Made by a program: the position numbers and the translations under genes
In this document: piece after piece, positions 4,260 to 31,342 of the stretch
Layout of the letters: each line of letters opens with the position of its first letter
Numbering within the stretch: position 1 is the stretch's first letter
Assembly (NCBI GenBank): GCA_003134435.1
Contig: PLBE01000098.1
Location: 1-40,271 of the forward strand
DNA: 40,271 bases
Direction: 5' to 3'
Source: Acidobacteriaceae bacterium
GTDB taxonomy: Bacteria; Acidobacteriota; Terriglobia; Terriglobales; Acidobacteriaceae
Notes under the pieces: generated by a model
What the model was told of the DNA's origin: nothing
Database searches by the model: none
What the model saw: the letters and a program-made list of their open reading frames with translations, nothing else

Positions 4260-5441
4260 TTAGAGAACCTCCAACTCAGCCTGCAACCCGCCCGCAGCTT
4301 TGATCGCCTGCAAGATGGCAACGATGTCCCGGGCGGTCGCTCCCATGGCGTGCAGGCCGTTAATCAACTCCTCGACGTTCGCTCCTTCTTTCAACTGGAA
4401 CGAACGCGCCGGCTTGTCGCTTGCCTTTACTTCGGTTTCGGGTACCACTTCCGTCTTTCCCTTGGACAGCGGCCCTGGCTGAGAGACATCGAATGTCGTG
4501 GTAACCTCAACTGTGAGATCGCCGTGCAGCACCGAAACGGGAGAGAGTTTCACGTCGCCTCCCATCACGATCGTCCCGGTCCGCTCGTTCATGACTACCT
4601 TCGCTGGAGGATGAATGGCAATGCTCAAATTCTGAACTTGTGCGATCAAGGTTGGGACCGTGGCGACTCCCGCCTGGTCAATATTGATGTCCACGCGGCG
4701 ACTGTCCAGCGCTGATGCCAGTTCCTTCCCAAACTCCTTATTGATGGCGTCGGCAACGTCGCGAGCAGCCGTAAAATCCGGTTCACGCAAGGCAAGCGAC
4801 AAAGTCTTGAGATGCTTTAAATCGATCGAGGTATCGCGTTCCACAATTCCGCCCGATGGCACTCGCCCGACCGTCACATGGTTCACTTCTTTGGAGTTAC
4901 CGCCGCCGCCAACTGTGTAGCCACCCAGAGTAAGTGGGCCCTGGGCCTGCGCATACACCTGTCCATCCGCGCCATGCAACGAAGTGAGCAGCAGCACACC
5001 TCCCTCCAGGCTTTTGGCGTCACCAAGCGAAGATACGGTTACGTCGAGTGCAGTCCCGGGCCGCGCAAACGGAGGCAGGGAGGCAGTGACCATCACGGCG
5101 GCGACGTTCCGAACTTGAATCGATGCCGCGGTAATCTGGGCACCCAGTCGTTGCAGCACATTGGCCAGAGCCTGGGTGGTGAATTGGGTTTGCTGGCTGT
5201 CCCCAGTGCGCTTCAGGCCCACTACAATGCTGTAGCCGATCAGGGGATTGTCCCGTATGCCTTCGATGGTCGTGATATCTCGCAGCAAAACACGACGACT
5301 GTCCTGCGCCGCCGCCGGACGCTGCCCGGCGACAATTAGAGAAGTAAGAAACACACCGACGACAAGCCACGGAGACGGCAGGCGCAGCCACAACCAGAGC
5401 CAGAGCAATCGGTGTCTCGCATCTACCAGGTGAGTAGCCAT
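4260..5441 (-). CDS. flgI: FlgI, flagellar P-ring protein
   Basis: FlgI assembles the periplasmic P ring around the rod. The 393-residue product carries a Sec signal (hydrophobic segment about 11-40, Ala-rich region QRPAAAQ before the mature start DSRRVLLRDITTIEGIRDNPLIGYSIVVGLKRTGDSQQT, the FlgI hallmark). Further family blocks are PPFARPGTALDVTVSSLGDAKSLEGGVLL and VVMNERTGTIVMGGDVKLSPVSVLHGDLTV. It ends GLHAMGATARDIVAILQAIKAAGGLQAELEVL, as FlgI does. The start at 5441 overlaps the end of flgH by 19 bases, which indicates translational coupling. FlgA, encoded in the same unit, is its assembly chaperone. Confidence 0.96.
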   Translation of the reverse strand: MATHLVDARHRLLWLWLWLRLPSPWLVVGVFLTSLIVAGQRPAAAQDSRRVLLRDITTIEGIRDNPLIGYSIVVGLKRTGDSQQTQFTTQALANVLQRLGAQITAASIQVRNVAAVMVTASLPPFARPGTALDVTVSSLGDAKSLEGGVLLLTSLHGADGQVYAQAQGPLTLGGYTVGGGGNSKEVNHVTVGRVPSGGIVERDTSIDLKHLKTLSLALREPDFTAARDVADAINKEFGKELASALDSRRVDINIDQAGVATVPTLIAQVQNLSIAIHPPAKVVMNERTGTIVMGGDVKLSPVSVLHGDLTVEVTTTFDVSQPGPLSKGKTEVVPETEVKASDKPARSFQLKEGANVEELINGLHAMGATARDIVAILQAIKAAGGLQAELEVL

Positions 5442-6136
5442 AGCAACCCCCTGATGATCGGATTTTGCCGGCCAATATAATCGTTCACGACCCCTTTTCC
5501 CTTGAGTTCGATTTCCAGGTCGGCCAGGGCCGTGGCAGGAGCAGAGTTGTTGGGGCCAACATCGCCGGGACGCAGCACGCCGCGCACGATCAGGTCTTCA
5601 TGCTGGCTATTGATCTGGATTTTCCGCTCCGCCTCCACAATCATGCTTCCGTCAGTCAACAGCGCAATCACGCGAGCGGACACGGTCGCCGTCACACTGG
5701 AACCCGCCGACGTTTCTCCTTGCCCCTTTAACGTCTTCGACGATGTCATGCCCAGCAGTGGGTTGGCCGGGTTTGACTGGAATCCGGGCAGGCTGGTGAT
5801 GGCCGAGCTTGCCTGGAATGTTCTTGAGTTATTCACATCGCCGGTGGATGACGCAGCCGTCGTCTCGGACACCAACAGAGTAACGACATCGCCTACACGG
5901 CGCGCCTTATAGTCCGCGCTCATGTCAGTGTAAGCGCCATTCGGAATATAAAGGCTGCCTAACGTCGTGGCGCCCGGTGCGGCGGGCTGCAACTGCATTC
6001 GAGCGATATAATCGGAACGCAGCTTTTGCGAATCTTGTTTTGATTTCGCATTGGCCAGCGCGCAAGGCAGGGCAGGCAGCAGGCCGAGGGCGACTGACAA
6101 GATAACTGCCCACCTGCTTCCATGTCGCACTCTCAT
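5423..6136 (-). CDS. flgH: FlgH, flagellar L-ring protein
   Basis: FlgH forms the outer-membrane L ring. The ATG at 6136 was chosen: it yields a signal peptide (MRVRHGSRWAVILSVALGLLPALPCALANA) and lies 14 bases after flgA, whereas the longer open frame would run through the flgA end. Diagnostic blocks are GSLYIPNGAYTDMSADYKARRVGDVVTLLVSE, LKGQGETSAGSSVTATVSARVIALLTDGSMIVEAERKIQINSQHEDLIVRGVLRPGDVGPNNSAPATALADLEIELKGKGVV and the ending NPIIRGLLWLLTW. E. coli FlgH is a lipoprotein. Here the only signal-peptide cysteine follows ALP, a poor lipobox because of proline at -1, so the protein may be cleaved by ordinary signal peptidase at ANA-KS. Confidence 0.94.
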   Translation of the reverse strand: MRVRHGSRWAVILSVALGLLPALPCALANAKSKQDSQKLRSDYIARMQLQPAAPGATTLGSLYIPNGAYTDMSADYKARRVGDVVTLLVSETTAASSTGDVNNSRTFQASSAITSLPGFQSNPANPLLGMTSSKTLKGQGETSAGSSVTATVSARVIALLTDGSMIVEAERKIQINSQHEDLIVRGVLRPGDVGPNNSAPATALADLEIELKGKGVVNDYIGRQNPIIRGLLWLLTW

Positions 6137-6150
6137 AGGCTTCAGATGAC

Positions 6151-6711
6151 TCAAAGGGTACCCTTCAGTATTCCAGCCGCAACTACTTCCGCATCGTAGA
6201 ATCGCTTCCGATCCAGGCTGGTTACACGGATCCTTTGCCCGCGACCTCCACTGTGCAAGCAAATCACGGGAAAACTCATTCGAGAATCCTTGGTTTCAAC
6301 AATCAACATTGCATGATCGCCGTCACGAACCACGTTCTCGATCGTACTAGTCGTAACTGCCGGCGCCGGGCGCATTGCGAGTTCGCTCCCGGTCAACCCA
6401 TCGAAGCCGTGCACCAGGACGTAGAACGGTAAGCACTCGCGATTATCGCGGCACCGCAACTTCGCTTTAACCGTCCCTGCCGTCCCCTTGCTCACGCTCA
6501 CCACGCGCATGGTCGCACTTGGGCTGATATTGTCGAGGCTGGAGAGTATCTCTATCTGATCCGGACCCGCGACAATGCCCGCAAAACCCATGGCATCAGC
6601 GATGCGCTGATTCGAGATGTCGCTTCGAGACACGGCCGCGTGGCTTACGGCGAACGGCATGGCCGTTACAATTAGAACCGACACGACGAATTTGCGGGCG
6701 CCATTTAGCAT
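6151..6711 (-). CDS. flgA: FlgA, P-ring assembly chaperone
   Basis: FlgA is a periplasmic chaperone that helps FlgI form the P ring. The 186-residue protein has an N-terminal signal (KFVVSVLIVTAMPFAVSHA, cleavage near residue 25), a diverged middle, and a C-terminal SAF-type domain. That domain runs IENVVRDGDHAMLIVETKDSRMSFPVICLHSGGRGQRIRVTSLDRKRFYDAEVVAAGILKGTL, matching the FlgA pattern in which a Gly-rich turn precedes IRV and a final V-x-x-x-G. It sits between flgG and flgH, the usual neighbours in many phyla. Two cysteine pairs in the middle (LRCRDNREC) could form a periplasmic disulphide. Confidence 0.9.
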   Translation of the reverse strand: MLNGARKFVVSVLIVTAMPFAVSHAAVSRSDISNQRIADAMGFAGIVAGPDQIEILSSLDNISPSATMRVVSVSKGTAGTVKAKLRCRDNRECLPFYVLVHGFDGLTGSELAMRPAPAVTTSTIENVVRDGDHAMLIVETKDSRMSFPVICLHSGGRGQRIRVTSLDRKRFYDAEVVAAGILKGTL

Positions 6712-6723
6712 TGCTGTGCCGTC

Positions 6724-7515
6724 TTACCGGCCGATGCTGGCAAGATCTTGCAACATCTGATCTGCTGATGTAACAACTCGTGAATTCGCTTCGTACGAAC
6801 GCTGCGCCACGATCATGTTGACAAACTCCGCCACCACATCCACGTTCGACTGTTCCAACATCCCCTGCTGCAGGGTCCCCATCCCTTCGGCTGATCCAGG
6901 AGCGCCTACGATAGGATCGCCCGATGCCGTGGTCGCGAGATACAAATTGTTGCCGATGCTGTTCAACCCGCCAGGATTCGGGAACATCGCCAACTGAATG
7001 CTCCCCACCTGCTGCGCGGCGGTCTGCCCCGCCTGGGTTACGGAGATCGTGCCATCGGAGCCGATCGTGACCGTAGTCGAGTTCGCTGGGACAGTGATGC
7101 TCGGTTGCAGTGGAGTCCCGTTGGCAGTGACGATGTTCCCCGTCGAGTCCAGATGGAACGAACCGGCTCTCGTATACGCGATAGAACCGTCCGGCAAGGT
7201 TACTTGAAAGAAACCGAGCCCCTGAATCGCGATATCCAAAGGATTGCCGGTCGAACTGAAGTTGCCCTGCGTCTGCATAATCTCTGAGGCGGCGCCCATC
7301 GTACCCAGTCCGACCTGGAGTCCCGCGGCGATGGTAGTCTGTTGTGTCGCCGCGGCGCCTGGCATGATCACATTCTGGTATACCAGATCGGAAAATTGCA
7401 GGCGGCGTGAGTAAAAGCCGGCGGTGCTAGAGTTAGCAAGGTTGTTGGCGATGTTATCGAGGTTCAATTGCTGCGCCGACATCCCGCTGGCCGCTGTATA
7501 GAGTGCACGAAGCAT
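6724..7515 (-). CDS. flgG: FlgG, distal rod protein
   Basis: FlgG forms the distal rod of the flagellar drive shaft. Its 263 residues equal the usual family length. The N terminus MLRALYTAASGMSAQQLNLDNIANNLANSSTAGFYSRRLQFSDL and the C terminus LEQSNVDVVAEFVNMIVAQRSYEANSRVVTSADQMLQDLASIGR are the D0 helices of the rod/hook family. GNPLDIAIQGLGFFQVTLPDGSIAYTRAGSFHLDSTGNIVTANGTPLQPSI is the conserved D1 segment. A strong ribosome site (AAAGGAGCG) stands 5 bases before the ATG. It follows flgF by 11 bases. No cysteine is present. Confidence 0.97.
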   Translation of the reverse strand: MLRALYTAASGMSAQQLNLDNIANNLANSSTAGFYSRRLQFSDLVYQNVIMPGAAATQQTTIAAGLQVGLGTMGAASEIMQTQGNFSSTGNPLDIAIQGLGFFQVTLPDGSIAYTRAGSFHLDSTGNIVTANGTPLQPSITVPANSTTVTIGSDGTISVTQAGQTAAQQVGSIQLAMFPNPGGLNSIGNNLYLATTASGDPIVGAPGSAEGMGTLQQGMLEQSNVDVVAEFVNMIVAQRSYEANSRVVTSADQMLQDLASIGR

Positions 7516-7526
7516 TTCTCGCTCCT

Positions 7527-8276
7527 TTAAGAATTATTGGGAACTCGTGGCAGGTCTTGAGTCGCAACCTGGTTCATCTCCGTATGGAACATGGTCAGCG
7601 CCCGCTGCATCAGTTCCGCGTATCGTTGTACCGTAATCAATTCGATAGAACTGGCAACGGCGTTTACATTGGAACTTTCCAGCATTCCCTGCTGGATGCT
7701 GGCCTGGGTCGCCGGGACGGCGCTCTTGTCGGGCGCTGAGTAATAGTTCTTCCCAACGCTTTCCAAAGGTGTTCCGGCCGGGAAATCGACCATCTTCACT
7801 TGGCCCGCCAAGGCTCCATTGACCGAAATCGTCCCGTCCGCACTCACCGACACCGGCGCTCCCACGATCGGTATGGGACGGTTGTCGCCTCCAAGAACCA
7901 AGTCGCCTTCGGACGTTACCAATTCGCCCTTTGCCGACACGTGGAAATTTCCATCGCGGGTATAGAGCTGACCGTTCGCTGTCTTTATCGCAAAAAAGCC
8001 GCTGCCCTGTATGCCCAGATCGAGATCGTTGCCCGTCTTCTCCAGATTTCCTTGCGAAAGGTCGAGTTGGCCGCCGCCCTGAACCGAATAGTCGTTTACC
8101 GCCTGATTTAAGCCTGAAAGAGCTGTGCCGGCGGACGTGGCCAACACGGAACGAAATGAATCGTGCCGCGCCCGATATCCCGGTGTACTTACGTTGGCGA
8201 GGTTGTTGGCAACCAGATCCAGTGTCTCGCTGCGCGCCATCAATGCCGTGCAAGCCGCGTAGAACCCGCTATCCAT
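7527..8276 (-). CDS. flgF: FlgF, proximal rod protein
   Basis: FlgF is a proximal rod subunit. It is 249 residues long (the family is about 240-250). It starts MDSGFYAACTALMARSETLDLVANNLANVSTPGYRARHDSF, has the core GNDLDLGIQGSGFFAIKTANGQLYTRDGNFHVSAKGELVTSEGDLVLGG, and ends LESSNVNAVASSIELITVQRYAELMQRALTMFHTEMNQ with the D0 helix. It is the first gene of unit D (flgF-flgG-flgA-flgH-flgI-flgJ), with GGGAG about 5 bases before the ATG and a possible sigma-54 promoter at 8298-8313. It differs from FlgG by its shorter length and order in the operon. Confidence 0.93.
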   Translation of the reverse strand: MDSGFYAACTALMARSETLDLVANNLANVSTPGYRARHDSFRSVLATSAGTALSGLNQAVNDYSVQGGGQLDLSQGNLEKTGNDLDLGIQGSGFFAIKTANGQLYTRDGNFHVSAKGELVTSEGDLVLGGDNRPIPIVGAPVSVSADGTISVNGALAGQVKMVDFPAGTPLESVGKNYYSAPDKSAVPATQASIQQGMLESSNVNAVASSIELITVQRYAELMQRALTMFHTEMNQVATQDLPRVPNNS

Positions 8277-8297
8277 GGAGACTCCCGTAGGAGAACA

Positions 8298-8313
8298 AGC
8301 ACGGGTGGGGCCA
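8298..8313 (-). promoter_or_regulatory. Possible sigma-54 promoter of flgF unit
   Basis: Read on the minus strand: TGGCCCC-ACCC-GTGCT, with GG and GC exactly 10 bases apart (consensus TGGCACG-N4-TTGCA). The start point would be near 8287, leaving an 11-base leader that just contains the GGGAG ribosome site. The match is weaker than for the other units. Confidence 0.45.
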
Positions 8314-8396
8314 CACTAACCTTGCGGCGTCGGTTGCAAGTGATTGACGATTCGTGGATGGCCGGTGGACCAAATGAGAGGACGATTAAATGGAAC

Positions 8397-19025: not shown

Positions 19026-20618
19026 TTACATGTGAATATCAAGTCGTGATGCCGGCTCGGTTACTTCTAAAGCGGCGAACGCGGGTATCACGCTTTCGTC
19101 GCGCCCGCTTGCGGGAGTCGTTGCGTAAACCTGTCGTCCGTCGTTCGATTTCTGTTGCTCGGATGCAGTAGAGTGGCTGTCACTGTGATTTTGCAGGGTA
19201 ATATTCGCCACTGCTACCCGTTGTTCCGTGAGGCGGCTCTGCAAGCTGGGAAGTTCCGCCGCCAAGGCCCGTCCGAGTTCTCCGTGCTCAGTGGAAATCT
19301 CGGCGGTGAACTGGCTGTGAATCATCGATGTCCGTATATCAACACTGCCGAATTCACCAGCCCGGATTCCGAGCCGCAATTCGGACTCTCCCATGCGCTC
19401 GACCAGCCTTGCTGAGTTGACTAACGATGTGGGATAGGCGACTGGACTCTCCACTTGTGCCTGACTCTGCGTAGCGCCCATCGAATCCTGGCTCAGGTGG
19501 CTGGCTTGCCGGTCACTGGCGTCCGAGGACGAGCCGAGGCTCACGTTCTTGCCGTCAGCGCCTGTCGCTGACGGTTGCGTCCCTGCCAGAGAAAAGGCCG
19601 CGGCAAAAGATGGAGAAGCATCGGTGGGTTTTGCTGGAGCAATGCCGCCACCCTGGTCCGCAGCCGAAGAACTCGTCGACGAGGTCGAGTCATCCCTGCG
19701 AGACTGAGCCTTTGCTCCCCCGCTGGCATCCACATTTTTCCGCGTCGTTCCCGTCACGTCGTCTGTCGAGTTACCTCGCGGTGCGTCCAATCCAGGCTTT
19801 CCCTGGGTTCCTTGTGCATTGCCGATTTCCAGGTTCCAGGGAGTCGGAACCAGGGGAGCTGGCGCCGGGGAAAGCAGTGTCGCGGCAACACCACTGAGTG
19901 GCACGGCCAGCGGATCGGAATCAACCTTTGCCCCGGACTGAGCCTCGCGATCGTCGCTGATATCGGCGCGACCGTGCGAACTGTCATGCGGTTGTGTCGC
20001 ACCACCGGGCTGTGGTTTCGAATCGGAGGTCGGCAGTTCCGTCAATGCGGAACTGGAAACGGCACTCTTGGTTACGGTGGGCAAGGTTGAATCTTCAACA
20101 CCATCCCGTTGGGCTGTTCCGTCTGCCGCAGTTGGACCTGTGGACCCGGTCGAATCGACCTGAAAAGCATTCTCCTGCTGCGTAGCCCCTGCCAAAGAAC
20201 CTGCGGCTTCGACCCCGCTGGTTGAATCGATCGCTGCATTGGCCGAGGAGGTTGTATCACCCTTCAGGTCTTTGCCCGCATTCCAAGAGAGAGCTGGCGG
20301 CGCTACCGCTACCGGAACAATCTTGTCCGATGCGACCGGGCTGGGTAAGGGCTTTTCGCCCGAGATGCTGGATCGACCCTTGCCATCGCTGGCTCTGGAG
20401 TCTGAGGACTTCGCTTCGCGCCTGGTCGTCCCATGAACCGCAGGGCCATCTCCTCTCGAGGTTCCCTGACTCTCGTCCGCCTGAATTCCCGCTGACTGTC
20501 GCGGCGATGAAGCTTTCTCCAGCACGGCCGAAAATGTCTGCACGCCCTCGGGGTTCGCGGTCGAGGCTGAGGCCACGGGAGGCGCTGCGGGCATCGGACT
20601 AGGAGCGGCTTGGGGCAT
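19026..20618 (-). CDS. fliK: FliK, hook-length control protein
   Basis: FliK measures hook length and triggers the FlhB specificity switch. From the ATG at 20618 it is 530 residues; an in-frame GTG lies at 20630. The first 380 residues are low-complexity, rich in Ser, Ala, Thr, Asp and Pro, as expected for the flexible ruler. The C-terminal switch domain is SARLVERMGESELRLGIRAGEFGSVDIRTSMIHSQFTAEISTEHGELGRALAAELPSLQSRLTEQRVAVANITLQ, matching the FliK (Flg_hook) pattern L-x-L-x-P-x-x-LG-x-(V/I)-x-(V/I). It heads unit B (fliK-flgD-flgE), with a sigma-54 element 40-55 bases upstream and a CTAGGCA palindrome further up. The gene contains no cysteine codon. Confidence 0.9.
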   Translation of the reverse strand: MPQAAPSPMPAAPPVASASTANPEGVQTFSAVLEKASSPRQSAGIQADESQGTSRGDGPAVHGTTRREAKSSDSRASDGKGRSSISGEKPLPSPVASDKIVPVAVAPPALSWNAGKDLKGDTTSSANAAIDSTSGVEAAGSLAGATQQENAFQVDSTGSTGPTAADGTAQRDGVEDSTLPTVTKSAVSSSALTELPTSDSKPQPGGATQPHDSSHGRADISDDREAQSGAKVDSDPLAVPLSGVAATLLSPAPAPLVPTPWNLEIGNAQGTQGKPGLDAPRGNSTDDVTGTTRKNVDASGGAKAQSRRDDSTSSTSSSAADQGGGIAPAKPTDASPSFAAAFSLAGTQPSATGADGKNVSLGSSSDASDRQASHLSQDSMGATQSQAQVESPVAYPTSLVNSARLVERMGESELRLGIRAGEFGSVDIRTSMIHSQFTAEISTEHGELGRALAAELPSLQSRLTEQRVAVANITLQNHSDSHSTASEQQKSNDGRQVYATTPASGRDESVIPAFAALEVTEPASRLDIHM

Positions 20619-20657
20619 GATTGCGATCACAATACTAGTTATCTCGTACAGAACAAT

Positions 20658-20673
20658 TGCAAATTGGAGTCCA
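20658..20673 (-). promoter_or_regulatory. Sigma-54 promoter of fliK-flgD-flgE
   Basis: Minus strand TGGACTC-CAAT-TTGCA, with GG and GC 10 bases apart and a perfect TTGCA -12 box (consensus TGGCACG-N4-TTGCA). The predicted start is near 20647, and the fliK ATG is at 20618. The palindrome at 20813-20831 lies about 175 bases upstream of the start, a normal distance for an NtrC-type activator site. Confidence 0.65.
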
Positions 20674-20798
20674 ACAATTCCGCATTAGAGACTGATTCCG
20701 GATGTGGCACCGGGCCTTAGGGAAACTAAAGAGTTTCAGGGATTATGCCGATTAGAGTTGAACGAGGTTTGTCGGGAAACCGATGAACTGGGTAACGA

Positions 20799-20831
20799 TT
20801 GCCTAGACCGCGCTAGGCAAAGTCTGCCTAC
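20799..20831. promoter_or_regulatory. Triple TGCCTAG half-site cluster upstream of fliK (probable operator)
   Basis: Three alternating half-sites: TGCCTAG (20800-20806), CTAGGCA (20813-20819) and TGCCTA (20825-20830). The last two make CTAGGCA-N5-TGCCTAC. Read along fliK transcription this is GTAGGCAGACTTTGCCTAG, 16 of 19 bases identical to the palindrome found at the two sigma-54 promoters near 29.7 and 30.4 kb. The fliJ stop codon lies inside it. It is a probable binding site for the cluster's NtrC-type regulator. Confidence 0.65.
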
Positions 20832-26656: not shown

Positions 26657-27015
26657 ACCTTGCCTCCCTCATTGATCGCACTTAGTAGGTTGTGAAACTC
26701 ATGCTGCAGTAGCTGAATACCTAGGCCAAACTGCATCTGCGTTTCCGCCAGCAGCAACCCTTCGCGGTCCAGGCTGACGTTATTTCCGTCCGGCCGTTCC
26801 AGAAGCCCGGGAACCGAGCGCGCCACCGGCAGGAAAGTGTCGTCGCCGCCTGCCGACGCCGCCCGTTTCAACTCGCTGCGAAAATCCAGATCCTTGGCGT
26901 GGTATCCCGGAGTGTCGATATTCGCCATATTTGCAATCACCAGTTTGTGGCGCTGCGAAGTTACATCCAGCGCCTTCTCCAGCAGGTTCATCATGGGAGT
27001 CGATACGTCGTTCAT
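26653..27015 (-). CDS. flgB: FlgB, proximal rod protein
   Basis: FlgB is a proximal rod subunit. It is 120 residues: LEKALDVTSQRHKLVIANMANIDTPGYHAKDLDFRSELKRA is the N-terminal D0/D1 motif, and ETQMQFGLGIQLLQHEFHNLLSAINEGGKV is the C-terminal helix. Its ATG overlaps the stop of the response-regulator gene by 4 bases. The first structural gene of the locus is thus translated directly with its likely transcriptional activator. Confidence 0.95.
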   Translation of the reverse strand: MNDVSTPMMNLLEKALDVTSQRHKLVIANMANIDTPGYHAKDLDFRSELKRAASAGGDDTFLPVARSVPGLLERPDGNNVSLDREGLLLAETQMQFGLGIQLLQHEFHNLLSAINEGGKV

Positions 27016-28412
27016 GCATACCTCCTCGGTGGCAGACCATGTTCGCGAATCTTGTTGCGGATCGTCCGCAGACTTACACCCAGCATCTCGGCGGTGCGCG
27101 TACGGTTGCCGCCGGTAGACTGCAGAGTTGCTTCCAACAAACGGCGCTCGACTTCGCGCATCGAAGATCCGGGCGGAGGCAGTGCCGCCGAAACCAGGGG
27201 CTTGGTCCGCGAACCCGCCACACCCGGGAGCTCGCTCTCCAGATATTCCGGGCCAATCTCACGACTGTCGCTTAAGGTGATCACCCGGCGCACGAAGTTT
27301 CCCAACTCCCGCACGTTTCCGGGCCAGTTGTGCGCTTGCAGGCCGGCTACGAACTCAGGATGCAGGAGCGGCACAGGCCGTCCAGCTTCGCGGGCGAACT
27401 TTCGCGCGAAGAAATCCGCCAGCTCAGGTATATCCTCCCGGCGCTCGCGCAGCGGCGGCAACGACAGTGGAATTACGTTCAGGCGATAGTAAAGATCGGC
27501 GCGAAATTTTCCCTGTTCGATCATGCCTGGCAGCGAAACATTGGTCGTGGCAACGATGCGGATGTTCACATGCGTGGTACGCGTATCTCCAAGCCGTTCA
27601 AACTCGCGCTCCTGCAGGGCCCGCAGCAACTTCGGCTGCAGCTGAAGTGGCATTTCGCCGATCTCATCCAGCAGCAAGGTCCCGCCGTCGGCTAACTCGA
27701 ATTTGCCCGCCTTGGAAGCCGTGGCACCGGTGAACGCCCCGCGCATGTGGCCGAAGAGTTCGCTTTCAAGGAGATGCTCCGGCACCGCAGCACAATTCAC
27801 CGCGATGAACGGCCGGTCCCGCCGGTCGCTATTCTCGCAGATATAGCGCGCAAAGAGCTCTTTCCCCGTGCCGCTCTCAGCCTCGATCAGAACGTCGGCG
27901 TCGGTTCGAGCAGCGTGGCGTGCGCGCTCCAATGCCCTTAACAGGTTGGCGGAACTGCCGATAATCGCTCCCGACGGAATCGCTCCGTCTGTTTGCCCCC
28001 CCGAGTAACTGACTGCGCGCCGCATAACTCGTTCAACAGCCGACTCCAACTCTTCAAACGAAATTGGCTTGGTCAAGTAATCGCAAGCGCCGCCGCGCAT
28101 CGCTTGCACTGCTTCCGGAACACTGCCAAAGGCGGTTAGTACGATGACGGCAGTCGATGGGCTGGAAGACTGCAGCGAGCGCATCAACTGTAAGCCATCC
28201 CCATCCGGCATGCGTACGTCTGTGACCACCAGCGGAAAGCGCCGAGATTCCAGCTTGCGCAAGGCCTCTGTACTTCCCCCGGCAACCTCCACATCCCAAC
28301 CCGCGCGCTGGAAATTTGTGCGCAGCGCCATGCGCATGCCGGGCTCATCGTCCACCACCAAGACGGACTTCGCGGTTTGGCCGATCCCTTGCCTGTTCAC
28401 CAGTTCCGTCAT
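27012..28412 (-). CDS. NtrC-family sigma-54 response regulator (FlrC/FleR/FlgR-like)
   Basis: A 466-residue activator with three domains. The receiver domain (about 16-125) has DDE at 21-23, phospho-acceptor Asp65 in [10 protein letters not shown], and Lys115 in LTKP. The AAA+ domain (about 150-390) has Walker A ESGTGKE, the sigma-54-contacting GAFTGA loop at 225-230, and Walker [13 protein letters not shown] Fis-type helix-turn-helix (about 418-462) reads [34 protein letters not shown]. It activates sigma-54 promoters when phosphorylated. Located between the histidine kinase and flgB with 4-base overlaps, it is most likely the flagellar regulator corresponding to FlrC, FleR or FlgR. The CTAGGCA-N5-TGCCTAG palindromes are its likely sites (inferred). 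Confidence 0.93.
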
Positions 28413-29650
28413 AGGACCGGAAACTCCATACGGAACGTCGTGCCGCGTCCCAATCGGCTTTGCACCTTGATAGTGCCGCGGTGTTGCTCCACAATTCGCT
28501 GGCAGACCGCAAGACCCAGGCCGGGAGTCTGCCCGGTGGTAGTGAATCCCATCTCGAAAATATGCGGCAGATTCTTCGGCTCAATCCCACAGCCTGTGTC
28601 AGCAAACTCGATCACGGCGCTTCGCCCGATCTCCCCTACTTCGATCCCAGCCGAAATGTCTATTTGGCCACCCAGCGGTGTATGTCGTAACGCATTGCAA
28701 GCCAGGTTGAGTAAGATTTGTCTCAAGCCACTGAAATTGCCGGCAATCTGCGCGTCCTGCAGAGTTTCTCGTAAGCGGAGCTGCACCCCTTTTTGCTGGG
28801 CCAAAGGAAGGATAAATTCCACCGCGCCCCGAAGCGCCGAGCCAAGTTCCAAAGGTCCCATTTCCTGGGCCGCAGGATTGTGGAAGCACAGTACGTTATT
28901 CACAGTGGCGGAAAGCGACCGCACTCCGGCTCTAAGGTGCTGCACGCACCGCTTCGAATCGTCACCCAGCCCCGGATCGCCCGCCAGGCAACCGGTCAAC
29001 AACTCCAGGCTTCCCAACGGATTGCGGATCTCATGGGCGAGAACAGTTGCCATTTCAGCGAGCGCCACTACGTTCCGTGAGTTTTCGCGCTGCCGCTCCA
29101 TGTCTTTCTGCGCCGTCACATCACCGATGATCAGAACCAGACACGAAGACTCGGCCTTACTGTTTCTTCTCCCAGAGTCCCTGACGGGGCTCGTCATTCT
29201 GCTATAGCGAATCGACAGACACAGTCTTCGTCCGTCGTTATCGACCGTGACTTCCTGTTCATAGTGCTCCCACGGTTCGCGACAGATATTCTTCACCGCG
29301 GCTTGCACGCACCCGGGAAGGCTGCCCCATTCGGCCGGTTCCGCGGCATTGAACAAGCGTCGCGCCTCCGGATTCAACAGAATCACTTCCTCGTTTTCGG
29401 TCTCAAGTACGGCCACGCCACAAGGCGAGGCATCCAGAATTTGTCGCAGCATAGCCCGCATGCGTTCGGTTTCCGCTACGCTGGAGGCAAGTGCGCGATT
29501 CCGCTCCTCGAGTTGCCGGCGCAACTCCGCCACCTCTTCGTGTAACTGCCGATGAGAATCCTCCAGCCGGTTCGCCGCCCCAATGAACGCGGTAAACGCA
29601 TCCGCGAGCTGACTCTCCTCGATTTGTGGCGTCTGCCTCGTGACTTGCAT
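28409..29650 (-). CDS. Cytoplasmic PAS histidine kinase (FlrB/FleS/FlgS-like)
   Basis: The cognate kinase of the NtrC-type regulator. From ATG 29650 it is 413 residues. An N-terminal coiled coil (about 28-70) and a PAS domain (about 70-180) are followed by the phosphorylation box VLAHEIRNPLGSL (His at about 206). The catalytic domain has the N box LNLACNALRHTPLG, the G1 box DTGCGI, the F box FEMGFTTTG and the G2 box TPGLGLAV. No membrane helix is seen, so it senses a cytoplasmic cue, as FlgS (export apparatus state) does. The frame is open to 29713, but that start would precede the predicted transcription start near 29681. The start has only a weak GAGA ribosome site. Confidence 0.9.
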   Translation of the reverse strand: MQVTRQTPQIEESQLADAFTAFIGAANRLEDSHRQLHEEVAELRRQLEERNRALASSVAETERMRAMLRQILDASPCGVAVLETENEEVILLNPEARRLFNAAEPAEWGSLPGCVQAAVKNICREPWEHYEQEVTVDNDGRRLCLSIRYSRMTSPVRDSGRRNSKAESSCLVLIIGDVTAQKDMERQRENSRNVVALAEMATVLAHEIRNPLGSLELLTGCLAGDPGLGDDSKRCVQHLRAGVRSLSATVNNVLCFHNPAAQEMGPLELGSALRGAVEFILPLAQQKGVQLRLRETLQDAQIAGNFSGLRQILLNLACNALRHTPLGGQIDISAGIEVGEIGRSAVIEFADTGCGIEPKNLPHIFEMGFTTTGQTPGLGLAVCQRIVEQHRGTIKVQSRLGRGTTFRMEFPVL

Positions 29651-29665
29651 TGGATTCTCGTGAGA

Positions 29666-29686
29666 ACTAGGCAACATCTGCCTAGT
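29666..29686 (-). promoter_or_regulatory. CTAGGCA palindrome over the kinase-operon start site
   Basis: A 21-bp perfect inverted repeat with 8-base arms (ACTAGGCA and TGCCTAGT) and a GATGT centre, read in the direction of transcription. It begins 6 bases after the -12 GC of the sigma-54 promoter, so it covers about -5 to +16. Its inner 19 bases are identical to the copy at 30386-30404. Confidence 0.82.
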
Positions 29687-29691
29687 CGATA

Positions 29692-29707
29692 TGCAACAGC
29701 TCTGCCA
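29692..29707 (-). promoter_or_regulatory. Sigma-54 promoter of kinase-regulator-flgB unit A
   Basis: Minus strand TGGCAGA-GCTG-TTGCA, matching TGGCACG-N4-TTGCA with two differences and GG-N10-GC intact. The predicted start is near 29681, within the palindrome, leaving a leader of about 30 bases to ATG 29650. Confidence 0.82.
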
Positions 29708-29820
29708 AAACACTGCAACTGCCGCAGGGCAATGTCGAACGTAACGCGAGGCGTGAGAAAAACCCGCCAGTGGAAGTGAGGATAACGCTTCTAAATGCCG
29801 ATGGTAGCCAGGACATGTCG

Positions 29821-29860
29821 TCAGAGATCGTTAGAGGTCGTTAGAGATCATTGAGCTGAC
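29821..29860. repeat. Four 10-bp tandem repeats upstream of the PilZ gene
   Basis: Consecutive decamers TCAGAGATCG, TTAGAGGTCG, TTAGAGATCA and TTGAGCTGAC, with consensus TTAGAGATCG; the first three are close copies. Period 10 puts each copy on the same face of the helix. They lie between the divergent kinase and PilZ genes and could be an operator array, but this is inference. Confidence 0.6.
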
Positions 29861-29928
29861 CCATTGCTTGTTAGTTGGAAATGAGAGCGCCGACGTGGTT
29901 CCTGTTTGGAAATAGTCGTGCTACTAAG

Positions 29929-30288
29929 ATGAATCTACTTATGGAGAGCAAGCCAAGAGTGACGGACAAAATATACAACTACGGTTACAGGACGCCGCGT
30001 TTCCCCATGGATTTCAGCCTACTGCTGCAGACTAACGATCGGCTTCCTGCGCTCTTGGAAGCGCACTGCTCAGATCTTAGCGAGGATGGGTTGGCAGCTG
30101 AGATCGCGGCTCCTCTCGAGATCGGCGCTAAGGTGACACTCATACTGACGTTGCCTGGAAATCCTACTGCTATCAGACTCAGCGCGACCGTGACCAATCA
30201 GAACCCCGGCGGATACGGCTTCGCTTTCATCTTCTCTTCTCCAAGCCAGCGTAACTATATTTCTGACTATCTCGCAGCCGAGCGCTAG
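29929..30288 (+). CDS. PilZ-domain protein
   Basis: A small (119-residue) PilZ domain, the fold that commonly binds c-di-GMP. Motifs: YRTPRFPMDF near residue 21, and CSDLSEDGLAAEI near residue 48, which fits (D/N)-x-S-x-x-G. A beta-barrel segment follows, KVTLILTLPGNPTAIRLSATVTNQNPGGYGFAFIF. The N-terminal arginines are spaced RxxR instead of the canonical RxxxR, so c-di-GMP binding is likely but not certain. Three in-frame ATGs (29875, 29929, 29941) are possible and none has a good ribosome site. 29929 is a compromise. It is transcribed divergently from the kinase operon and may act as a YcgR-like brake or a regulator of motility. Confidence 0.72.
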   Translation: MNLLMESKPRVTDKIYNYGYRTPRFPMDFSLLLQTNDRLPALLEAHCSDLSEDGLAAEIAAPLEIGAKVTLILTLPGNPTAIRLSATVTNQNPGGYGFAFIFSSPSQRNYISDYLAAER

Positions 30289-30363
30289 CGCTTGTTTGTT
30301 CAGCGGAAGCGTCTCAAGGCCATCGTCCGAAATAAGCCGGTTACCCAATCTTCTCTTCCACTT

Positions 30364-30379
30364 TGGCAAGTCCCGTGCA
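30364..30379 (+). promoter_or_regulatory. Sigma-54 promoter of the CheC-like/FliN gene
   Basis: Plus strand TGGCAAG-TCCC-GTGCA, with GG-N10-GC intact (consensus TGGCACG-N4-TTGCA). The predicted start near 30390 lies inside the palindrome at 30385-30405. The leader to ATG 30518 is about 128 bases. Confidence 0.8.
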
Positions 30380-30384
30380 TCGCA

Positions 30385-30405
30385 GCTAGGCAGATGTTGC
30401 CTAGC
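30385..30405 (+). promoter_or_regulatory. CTAGGCA palindrome over the CheC-like/FliN gene start site
   Basis: GCTAGGCA-GATGT-TGCCTAGC, a 21-bp perfect inverted repeat starting 6 bases after the -12 GC. The orientation and spacing are the same as at the kinase-operon promoter, and the inner 19 bases are identical, including the non-symmetric centre. Confidence 0.82.
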
Positions 30406-30420
30406 GCTCATGCTGGTCTA

Positions 30421-30516
30421 ATGAAAATCCTAGGGATGAGGTATCGGGTGCCACCGTTCAACGCCACCCAACTCGGAACGGCAATGACTCTCTCCGGCCA
30501 GCAAAGGAAGCAATAA
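30421..30516 (+). CDS. Possible leader peptide before the CheC-like/FliN gene
   Basis: A 31-codon frame (MKILGMRYRVPPFNATQLGT and 11 further residues) lies entirely within the predicted 128-base leader. Its TAA stops one base before the ATG of the next gene. No good ribosome site precedes it. It may couple translation to the next gene or be chance. Confidence 0.25.
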   Translation: MKILGMRYRVPPFNATQLGTAMTLSGQQRKQ

Positions 30517-30517
30517 C

Positions 30518-31342
30518 ATGGCCACCATTACTCCGGGAACGCCGCCGTACATTCTGGTGGAATCTCTTCGGCAGGCAACCAGCGACCGATTCTCCCAGAC
30601 TATGGGCACGAATTGGACCGTCGAGATCGATGCCAGCGCTGTTCTCCCACCTGGGGAGGATACCGTTCTATGCTTTCAGCTGTCGACCTCCGGAGAACTT
30701 GAAGGCAATGCCTTTATCAAGATTGGAACCACGGACGCAATCTACTTGGCTCAAAAATTACTTGCGGAACCGGTCGATCCGTCTGCGGGATTGAATCAGG
30801 ATCGAAAAGAAGCGCTTCGGAAACTGCTGGGGCAGGTCGCAAACCAGGCCGCTAACAGCCTGGGTATTCGGTTCGGTGAGGCCAAGATAGAAGTAGAAGT
30901 AAGCGCGATCGAGCCTCCCCTGTCACAGGGTACGAGCATCGCAATGCTGGCCGCGGAAGCCTCGTCCAAGGTGACCATGTACTTGGAGCTGAGTCCGGAA
31001 CTCCTAGCCAGCCTGGCATCCGCAGAGACCGCGGCGCCGGCACCGGTGGCAAGCGCCAAGGAGTACATTGACGTGGCGCCTCATGAACCGAACCTCGGCC
31101 TCTTGCTTGGAGTCAATCTGAGTCTCACCCTTCGTTTCGGGCAACGCGTTCTGCCGCTGCGAGAGGTACTGGACTTAAATGCCGGCGCCATCGTTGAGCT
31201 TGATCGCGAAGTACGGGAACCGGCCGATCTTCTTTTGGGCGATAAGGTCATCGCTAGAGGAGAAGTGGTCCTCGTCGATGGGAATTACGGTCTTCGAATC
31301 ACCGAGGTAGCGGACGCGCGCCAGCGAATCGGAACGCTATAG
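30518..31342 (+). CDS. fliN: FliN/FliY-type switch protein with CheC-like N-terminal domain
   Basis: A 274-residue protein of two parts. Residues 1-165 resemble CheC/FliY phosphatase-family folds: GELEGNAFIKIGTTDAIYLAQKLL, then DRKEALRKLLGQVANQAANSLGIRFGEAKI, analogous to the E-x-x-N helix. The CheC catalytic Asn/Glu pattern is not clearly kept (LLGQVANQ). Residues about 192-268 are a SpoA domain: NLGLLLGVNLSLTLRFGQRVLPLREVLDLNAGAIVELDREVREPADLLLGDKVIARGEVVLVDGNYGLRITEV, the FliN signature. An AGGAAG ribosome site is present. With its own sigma-54 promoter it is probably a C-ring subunit. It may work with the short FliN at 16790 and, without a local fliM, could take over part of FliM's role (inferred). 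Confidence 0.82.
   Translation: MATITPGTPPYILVESLRQATSDRFSQTMGTNWTVEIDASAVLPPGEDTVLCFQLSTSGELEGNAFIKIGTTDAIYLAQKLLAEPVDPSAGLNQDRKEALRKLLGQVANQAANSLGIRFGEAKIEVEVSAIEPPLSQGTSIAMLAAEASSKVTMYLELSPELLASLASAETAAPAPVASAKEYIDVAPHEPNLGLLLGVNLSLTLRFGQRVLPLREVLDLNAGAIVELDREVREPADLLLGDKVIARGEVVLVDGNYGLRITEVADARQRIGTL

Follow-up and report, generated by a model that had tools for sequence, protein, structure and literature searches.

In Caulobacter crescentus, as excerpted from the cited accounts, FlbD acts through ftr sites both to activate the fliK/hook class of genes and to repress the early fliF operon at ftr4 (PMC3930126, PMC3096577), and the extract of a further source describes FlbD as having no linked histidine kinase (PMC7064773). 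In Vibrio (FlrA-FlrB-FlrC) and Pseudomonas (FleQ-FleS-FleR), the relevant section of the first of these sources places the two-component genes in an early tier that is followed by a regulator-dependent tier (PMC3930126), and the same section presents Helicobacter FlgR as a sigma-54 activator that lacks a DNA-binding domain and acts from solution (PMC3930126). Two more general points bear on the locus described here. According to the cited excerpt, sigma-54 polymerase must melt and load the DNA around the start in order to open a promoter (PMC7057263), and the part of the Sinorhizobium study cited here mapped 171 leaderless mRNAs, defined as starting at the AUG itself (PMC3616915).

The window analyzed in this work is a stretch of 40,271 nucleotides from an Acidobacteriaceae bacterium (assembly GCA_003134435.1, contig PLBE01000098.1). 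It carries a minus-strand operon in the order kinase, regulator, a gene in the flgB position without a Pfam hit, flgC, fliE, fliF, fliG, fliH, fliI and fliJ. The original prediction was that the same 19-bp palindrome lies over two divergent sigma-54 start sites, one of them that of the kinase operon, and the features concerned are as follows.

27012..28412, minus strand: NtrC-type response regulator (receiver, Sigma54_activat with GAFTGA, HTH_8), the proposed palindrome binder
28409..29677, minus strand: histidine kinase with PAS, HisKA and HATPase_c domains, 422 aa when counted from the ATG of the palindrome; its position is FlrB/FleS-like
29667..29685, minus strand: palindrome at the kinase start site, proposed operator, centre at +6 of the predicted transcription start at 29681
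29692..29707, minus strand: sigma-54-like promoter of the kinase-regulator operon, TGGCAGAGCTGTTGCA, score 9.0 of 10.7, with copies in relatives
30364..30379, plus strand: sigma-54-like promoter of the fliN operon, TGGCAAGTCCCGTGCA, score 9.2 of 10.7
30386..30404, plus strand: second start-site palindrome, centre at +6 of the predicted transcription start at 30390

Both copies of the palindrome (CTAGGCAGATGTTGCCTAG) were found where they had been predicted, each starting 7 bases 3' of the GC in a GG-N10-GC element, and the flanking pairs 29666/29686 and 30385/30405 match as well, which makes both copies 21-bp inverted repeats. In the two promoters the GG at −24 and the GC at −12 are separated by 10 bp, an arrangement kept in the copies of relatives, and by a simple consensus score (the sigma-54 consensus being near TGGCACG-N4-TTGCW) they are the top two sigma-54-like sites of the window. 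Transcription from such promoters, which needs RpoN, is expected to start about 12 nt after the C of the −12 element; all predicted start sites, and all + and − distances given here, including the +6 at which both palindromes are centred, rest on this 12-nt rule. The exact pattern CTAGGCA-N5-TGCCTAG occurs at 2 places in the 5,749,602-base genome, both at strong GG-N10-GC sites, and its backward control at none, so that a mobile or genome-wide repeat is ruled out. Loose matching does not discriminate: with up to 3 mismatches there are 92 places in the genome vs. 295 for the backward control, which is uninformative as genome-wide evidence.

The predicted link between palindrome and sigma-54 element extends to relatives. 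A search of 398 family genomes for the palindrome core followed within 0–25 bases (26 spacings) by a reversed sigma-54 element gave 86 matches in 74 genomes; 22 of these matches have the spacing of the window, and the remaining 25 spacings share 64 matches, with at most 7 at any single one. Because the relatives peak at one spacing, chance placement of the palindrome is unlikely. The surroundings were inspected for all 22 same-spacing matches and, from the other 64, for those in G049, G052 and G060. Twenty-one of the 22 (18 genomes, 8 genera) are the start of the kinase-regulator-flgBC-fliEFGHIJ operon or of fliM/fliN, and one (L102 in genome G119) has no flagellar gene nearby. In two more genera the site is displaced by a single base, to +5 in L050 and to +7 in L052. 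The distribution is patchy, as 380 of the 398 family genomes, and 21 of the 24 in the same genus, have no flagellar match at the window's spacing under this strict pattern. Homologues of the regulator with at least 67% identity were found only in G001, G015 and G052 besides the source genome's own, and most genus mates compared carry only a regulator that is about 60% identical or less.

A second scan covered 84,980 named species genomes with a pattern consisting of the palindrome centre plus CTCAT. It returned 61 stretches, 26 of which are kinase or fliM/fliN starts (16 of these, judging by length, are on contigs that had come up in the family search). All but one of the 26 bear acidobacterial titles (Terriglobia, Terriglobales, Acidobacteriaceae, Granulicella, Silvibacterium, Bryocella, Acidipila or plain Acidobacteria), the exception, L137, being titled Verrucomicrobia. 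Cultured strains that carry the element include Silvibacterium bohemicum S15 and Bryocella elongata DSM 22489. The other 35 stretches belong to unrelated genomes, none of them at a kinase start and none with a sigma-54 element at that spacing, and on a rough estimate their number is about that expected by chance. Among the 26, one (L149) is cut by a contig end, the centre lies at +5 in three (L150, L167 and L175), and in L117 and L134 the operator and its ATG are shifted to +16 and +17, about one helical turn further, with a longer leader in which AGGAG precedes the ATG. The resulting natural displacement series of +5, +6, +7, +16 and +17 could be used for studying how an enhancer-binding protein blocks or helps promoter opening.

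The two-site picture of the original prediction proved incomplete, since both sites are part of a larger group that also includes an enhancer-like placement. Imperfect copies before fliK, at 20788 and 20813, had been overlooked in the first reading of the window:

19026..20630, minus strand: FliK (Flg_hook), followed by flgD and flgE
20658..20673, minus strand: weak sigma-54-like site before fliK, TGGACTCCAATTTGCA, predicted transcription start 20647; relatives mostly match better at a similar distance
20788..20806, minus strand: enhancer-type palindrome CTAGGCAATCGTTACCCAG, centre at −150 of the predicted fliK start
20813..20831, minus strand: enhancer-type palindrome GTAGGCAGACTTTGCCTAG, centre at −175 of the predicted fliK start

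We inspected the fliJ-fliK interval in 17 loci, namely L064 and 16 of the 20 kinase loci (the rest do not cover the interval). At least one GGYA-N5-TRCC precedes fliK in 17/17, and in 13 of them there is a pair 21–26 bp apart. The distal centres of the pairs lie at −158 to −175 and the proximal ones at −136 to −150, with the exception of L053 (−141/−119, weak promoter), and the four single sites fall between −128 and −175, according to which promoter is taken; since the fliK promoters were selected by their distance, these values lend support without being independent evidence. By its placement in the sequence, the same site is thus found at an enhancer distance from the hook genes and over the early promoters, as for an FlbD-like regulator. 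Another pair, 23 bp apart, occurs in L058 (contig C114, about 6259–6300), with centres at −150/−127 of the sigma-54-like site TGGAATCGAACGTGCA; this site precedes a 191-aa gene of unassigned function (6514–7089, plus strand), which is likely a further target of the regulator.

Contig C88 (L057) carries a palindrome pair 24 bp apart at 8293–8335, upstream of a GGDEF-EAL gene (6511–8127, minus strand) and close to the source genome's HTH-less sigma-54 activator (5244–6425, plus strand). Inspection by eye near this pair gave no convincing sigma-54 site for the GGDEF-EAL gene.

The regulator has the receiver, the AAA+ domain with GAFTGA and the Fis-type HTH of an NtrC-type protein, and the HTH is nearly invariant within the group. 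It scores 347.9 bits against the NCBIfam FlbD model NF050807, which is below the cut-off of 750 for family membership, and it is best described as a protein that may work like FlbD, as distinct from being FlbD. The reading toward which we lean, and which we consider moderately probable, is one of dual use, in which this regulator activates the hook genes from a distance and represses the early operons at a start-site operator. The GGCA-N5-TGCC palindromes would be its binding sites in two placements. From enhancers that are mostly paired and lie at about −136 to −175, the regulator would activate the sigma-54 promoter of fliK-flgDE, and from the single site at about +6 it would block promoter opening at kinase-regulator-flgBC-fliEFGHIJ and at fliMN or fliN, so that its own operon and the C-ring genes would be shut off upon the switch to hook genes. 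Judged by the genes that follow them, the start-site copies mark early, basal-body and C-ring operons. A block at +6 seems reasonable given that the DNA around the start has to be melted and loaded. The original prediction had offered either this regulator or a repressor of open-complex formation as the binder. The first assignment is supported by the fliK cores in all loci inspected, by the linkage in one operon and by the near-invariant HTH, and stands as a prediction; the second is now the role preferred for the start-site copies, the repressor being the regulator itself.

A candidate activator of the early promoters is encoded close to the kinase in most relatives looked at. In 16 of the 20 kinase loci a second sigma-54 activator lies upstream of the kinase (within about 110 bp in 14, at about 0.4 kb in L096 and at 1.2 kb in L105), and 16/16 end at the AAA+ lid or no more than about 20 residues after it. 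A Pfam scan of four of them, the source genome's C88 copy included, found Sigma54_activat and the lid in each and HTH_8 in none, and GAFTGA was confirmed in the C88 copy; an AAA+ domain with GAFTGA and without a DNA-binding domain is the composition of an FlgR-like activator. As an FlgR-type protein can activate from solution, the early promoters may need no enhancer, which would leave the start-site palindrome free to serve as an operator. The HTH-less activator, with the genome's own homologue on C88, would probably be what opens them. The other four loci (the window, L046, L103 and L104) have a PilZ gene upstream of the kinase instead.

In this PilZ arrangement, GG-N10-GC sites are present before the divergent pilZ gene at 29876–29933 of the window and near 15280 in L046. 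The kinase palindrome of L046 would lie at −190 of a pilZ GG-N10-GC site and might double as a pilZ enhancer; across the four loci, the distances from palindrome to pilZ site vary from −108 to −323. The window also has three near-copies of a 10–11 bp unit (GATCGTTAGAG type) at 29818–29857, between the kinase promoter and pilZ, and inspection of L046, L103 and L104 by eye showed none of these.

The alternative that survives best is that the regulator, by itself or in a hetero-oligomer with the HTH-less activator, activates from the start-site palindrome, which would amount to positive autoregulation. Downstream flagellar enhancers are known, among them those of Pseudomonas FleQ and Vibrio FlrC, and such an enhancer was reportedly described, judging by their titles, by Gober and Shapiro in 1992 and by Mullin and Newton in 1993. 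A precedent for the hetero-oligomer is found in Rhodobacter, where, in the excerpt of the cited source, FleQ and FleT form a complex and fleT is in an operon with fliEFGHIJ (PMC7277832). It also fits that no other shared palindrome was recognised upstream of the kinase promoters in 17 loci, searched by eye and with a simple inverted-repeat listing; a shared upstream enhancer of this promoter was thus not recognised in a survey short of a full motif search. However, a dimer centred at +6 would occupy DNA that has to be melted and held by the polymerase, fliK in these genomes has its sites at ordinary enhancer distances, and an activator lacking the HTH needs no site. We consider activation from the start site unlikely.

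The original prediction also pointed to the conserved, non-symmetric GATGT centre of the palindrome. The conservation holds, but the centre is more than a property of an operator, as it contains the probable start codon of the kinase:

29675..29677, minus strand: ATG within the palindrome, probable kinase start codon at predicted +5

We gathered 20 kinase copies by position and not by centre sequence, and in 20/20 there is an ATG at predicted +5 (+4 in L050, +6 in L052) from which the kinase frame is open over the 80 codons inspected (58 in L103, where the contig ends). An in-frame stop lies within the 30 codons upstream of this ATG in 13 of the copies. The alternative ATG at codon 10 is present in only 8/20 and cannot be the general kinase start. 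It is therefore probable that the kinase starts MLPSSH on a near-leaderless mRNA, with about 3–5 nt between the predicted 5' end and the start codon. Within the dual-use reading, the ATG in the operator centre would start the kinase about 4 nt past the predicted 5' end, or open a leader ORF that ends at fliM/fliN.

Paralogous kinase promoters have an ATG at +2 to +4 in 4/4 loci (L063 and L065 being close relatives), and the near-leaderless kinase may therefore predate the placement of the operator. The second flagellar system of the source genome (contig C198, L056) has GGCAATTTRTGCC at −37 of the kinase sigma-54 site, as do L063 and L065; the core is thus at −37 in three of the four paralogous loci and absent near the kinase in the fourth. 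The palindrome itself was not found within 2 mismatches in L056, L062, L063 or L065.

At the second start site the ATG of the palindrome precedes a short frame:

30394..30516, plus strand: short ORF of 40 codons, possible coupled leader ORF, opened by the palindrome ATG and with its stop 1 nt before the FliN ATG
30518..31342, plus strand: FliN/FliY-type C-ring protein, the gene after the second start-site palindrome

In five fliM/fliN copies an ORF of 16–40 codons begins at the palindrome ATG (on contig C144, at an ATG in the following codon), and in 5/5 its stop falls between 17 nt inside and 4 nt before the ATG of the next gene, in the same relative frame. With shuffled intervening DNA, the single-case frequencies are 0.09–0.25 and their product is 1.4 × 10−4, a value that overstates the evidence since the accepted range was chosen with the cases already in view and the copies are relatives of one another. 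A FliM-like gene, judged by its N-terminus, comes first after the promoter in L046, L103 and L104, and the source genome has a second fliM-fliN pair on C144 (L059; FliM by Pfam) with the site at +6. The window copy (30386–31342) is without fliM, unlike these four.

Downstream of the palindrome a further element, CTCAT-N6-CYAAT, is shared by both kinds of start site:

29649..29666, minus strand: downstream element on the kinase side, TTCTCAC-N6-CCAAT (consensus TTCTCAT-N6-CCAAT)
30405..30422, plus strand: downstream element on the fliN side, CGCTCAT-N6-CTAAT

Among the 20 kinase copies, CTCAT is present in 17 (the window has CTCAC) and CCAAT in 16, with L050 and L052 lacking both and L110 and L111 lacking CCAAT; the fliM/fliN copies have CTCAT in 5/5 (with a one-base shift in L059), followed by CTAAT, CTAAC or TTAAT. 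A larger set of 29 kinase copies has TCT as codon 5 in 27 and CAT as codon 6 in 26, compared with a same-gene usage of 8% and 51%, although this set was picked for the ATG core and open frame, with some members found through a pattern that contains CTCAT, and the set gathered without that pattern is that of 20. Conservation of the protein is disfavoured as an explanation of the motif by this skewed codon choice, by its persistence at fliM/fliN and by the other frame in L059.

These elements bear on a second alternative, that we are dealing mainly with a translation-start or RNA element, in which a start codon in a hairpin loop is combined with CTCAT-N6-CYAAT and the palindrome is conserved because of mRNA structure rather than DNA binding. 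The ATG is centred in every kinase copy, CTCAT-N6-CYAAT lies within the transcribed part (fliM/fliN copies included), and in L117 and L134, where AGGAG is gained, operator and ATG move jointly and the whole palindrome would be transcribed. At the other copies, however, the left arm is partly upstream of the predicted +1, and when the RNA of the window copy is predicted from +1 the palindrome hairpin no longer folds, so that the dyad is more likely a feature of the DNA; a hairpin, which could form in L117 and L134, is accordingly disfavoured as the reason for the dyad. In addition, the core recurs upstream of fliK at −136 to −175, where its centre varies, and the C144 fliM copy has no ATG at the exact palindrome position. 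We judge an RNA element to be improbable as the main explanation. It is also quite doubtful that the start-site copies are bound by some other protein, be it a second Fis-type regulator or an unrelated repressor with a similar site, and that the regulator binds the fliK enhancers only. The start-site copies do differ by their fixed centre and extra downstream element, but both placements share the GGCA/TGCC half-sites and a 5-bp spacer, and the start codon explains the fixed centre; the search for further regulator genes covered relatives of this regulator.

The dual-use reading can be taken one step further, to a portable cassette of about 60 bp made up of a sigma-54 promoter, a repressor-type operator for an enhancer-binding protein at the fixed phase of +6 and a start codon in the operator centre, with an enhancer-free activator opening the early tier and an enhancer-bound regulator opening the hook tier and closing the early one. 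We put this forward tentatively, as possible, and in it CTCAT-N6-CYAAT would be a further, previously undescribed part. If it is true, about 60 bp would set the transcription start, the feedback shut-off and a near-leaderless translation start. The probable site of an enhancer-binding protein over a sigma-54 start, with the start codon centred in it, would be an unusual natural design. Among the papers listed in a literature search mainly outside subscription journals, none was by its title a dedicated study of acidobacterial flagellar regulation, and none was seen to describe start-site repression of a sigma-54 promoter by an enhancer-binding protein. The wiring proposed here for the flagellar hierarchy of soil acidobacteria is precise and testable, and it suggests FlbD-style early-off/hook-on logic outside the Proteobacteria with different hardware.

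Compared with the known systems, the presence of a sigma-54 activator together with a kinase and an NtrC-type regulator resembles Vibrio Flr and Pseudomonas Fle, but here the upstream activator has no HTH, the two-component genes head the flgBC-fliEFGHIJ operon, and the start-site palindrome has a start codon embedded in it. The activator upstream of the kinase is comparable in domain content to Helicobacter FlgR, which it differs from in coexisting with an HTH-bearing regulator; its targets would be those proposed above. Leaderless mRNAs resemble the predicted kinase transcript in that translation begins at the 5' end or very close to it; here such a start is predicted for sigma-54 promoters and within a proposed operator, and most sites would have a leader of about 3–5 nt. 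The closest likeness is to Caulobacter FlbD and its ftr sites, in which a flagellar NtrC-type regulator uses its sites in a hook-on/early-off manner, the repression being predicted in our case. Unlike FlbD, the regulator here is linked to a histidine kinase, the early promoters are sigma-54-type by sequence, and the site lies at +6 together with a start codon; the likeness is one of site placement.
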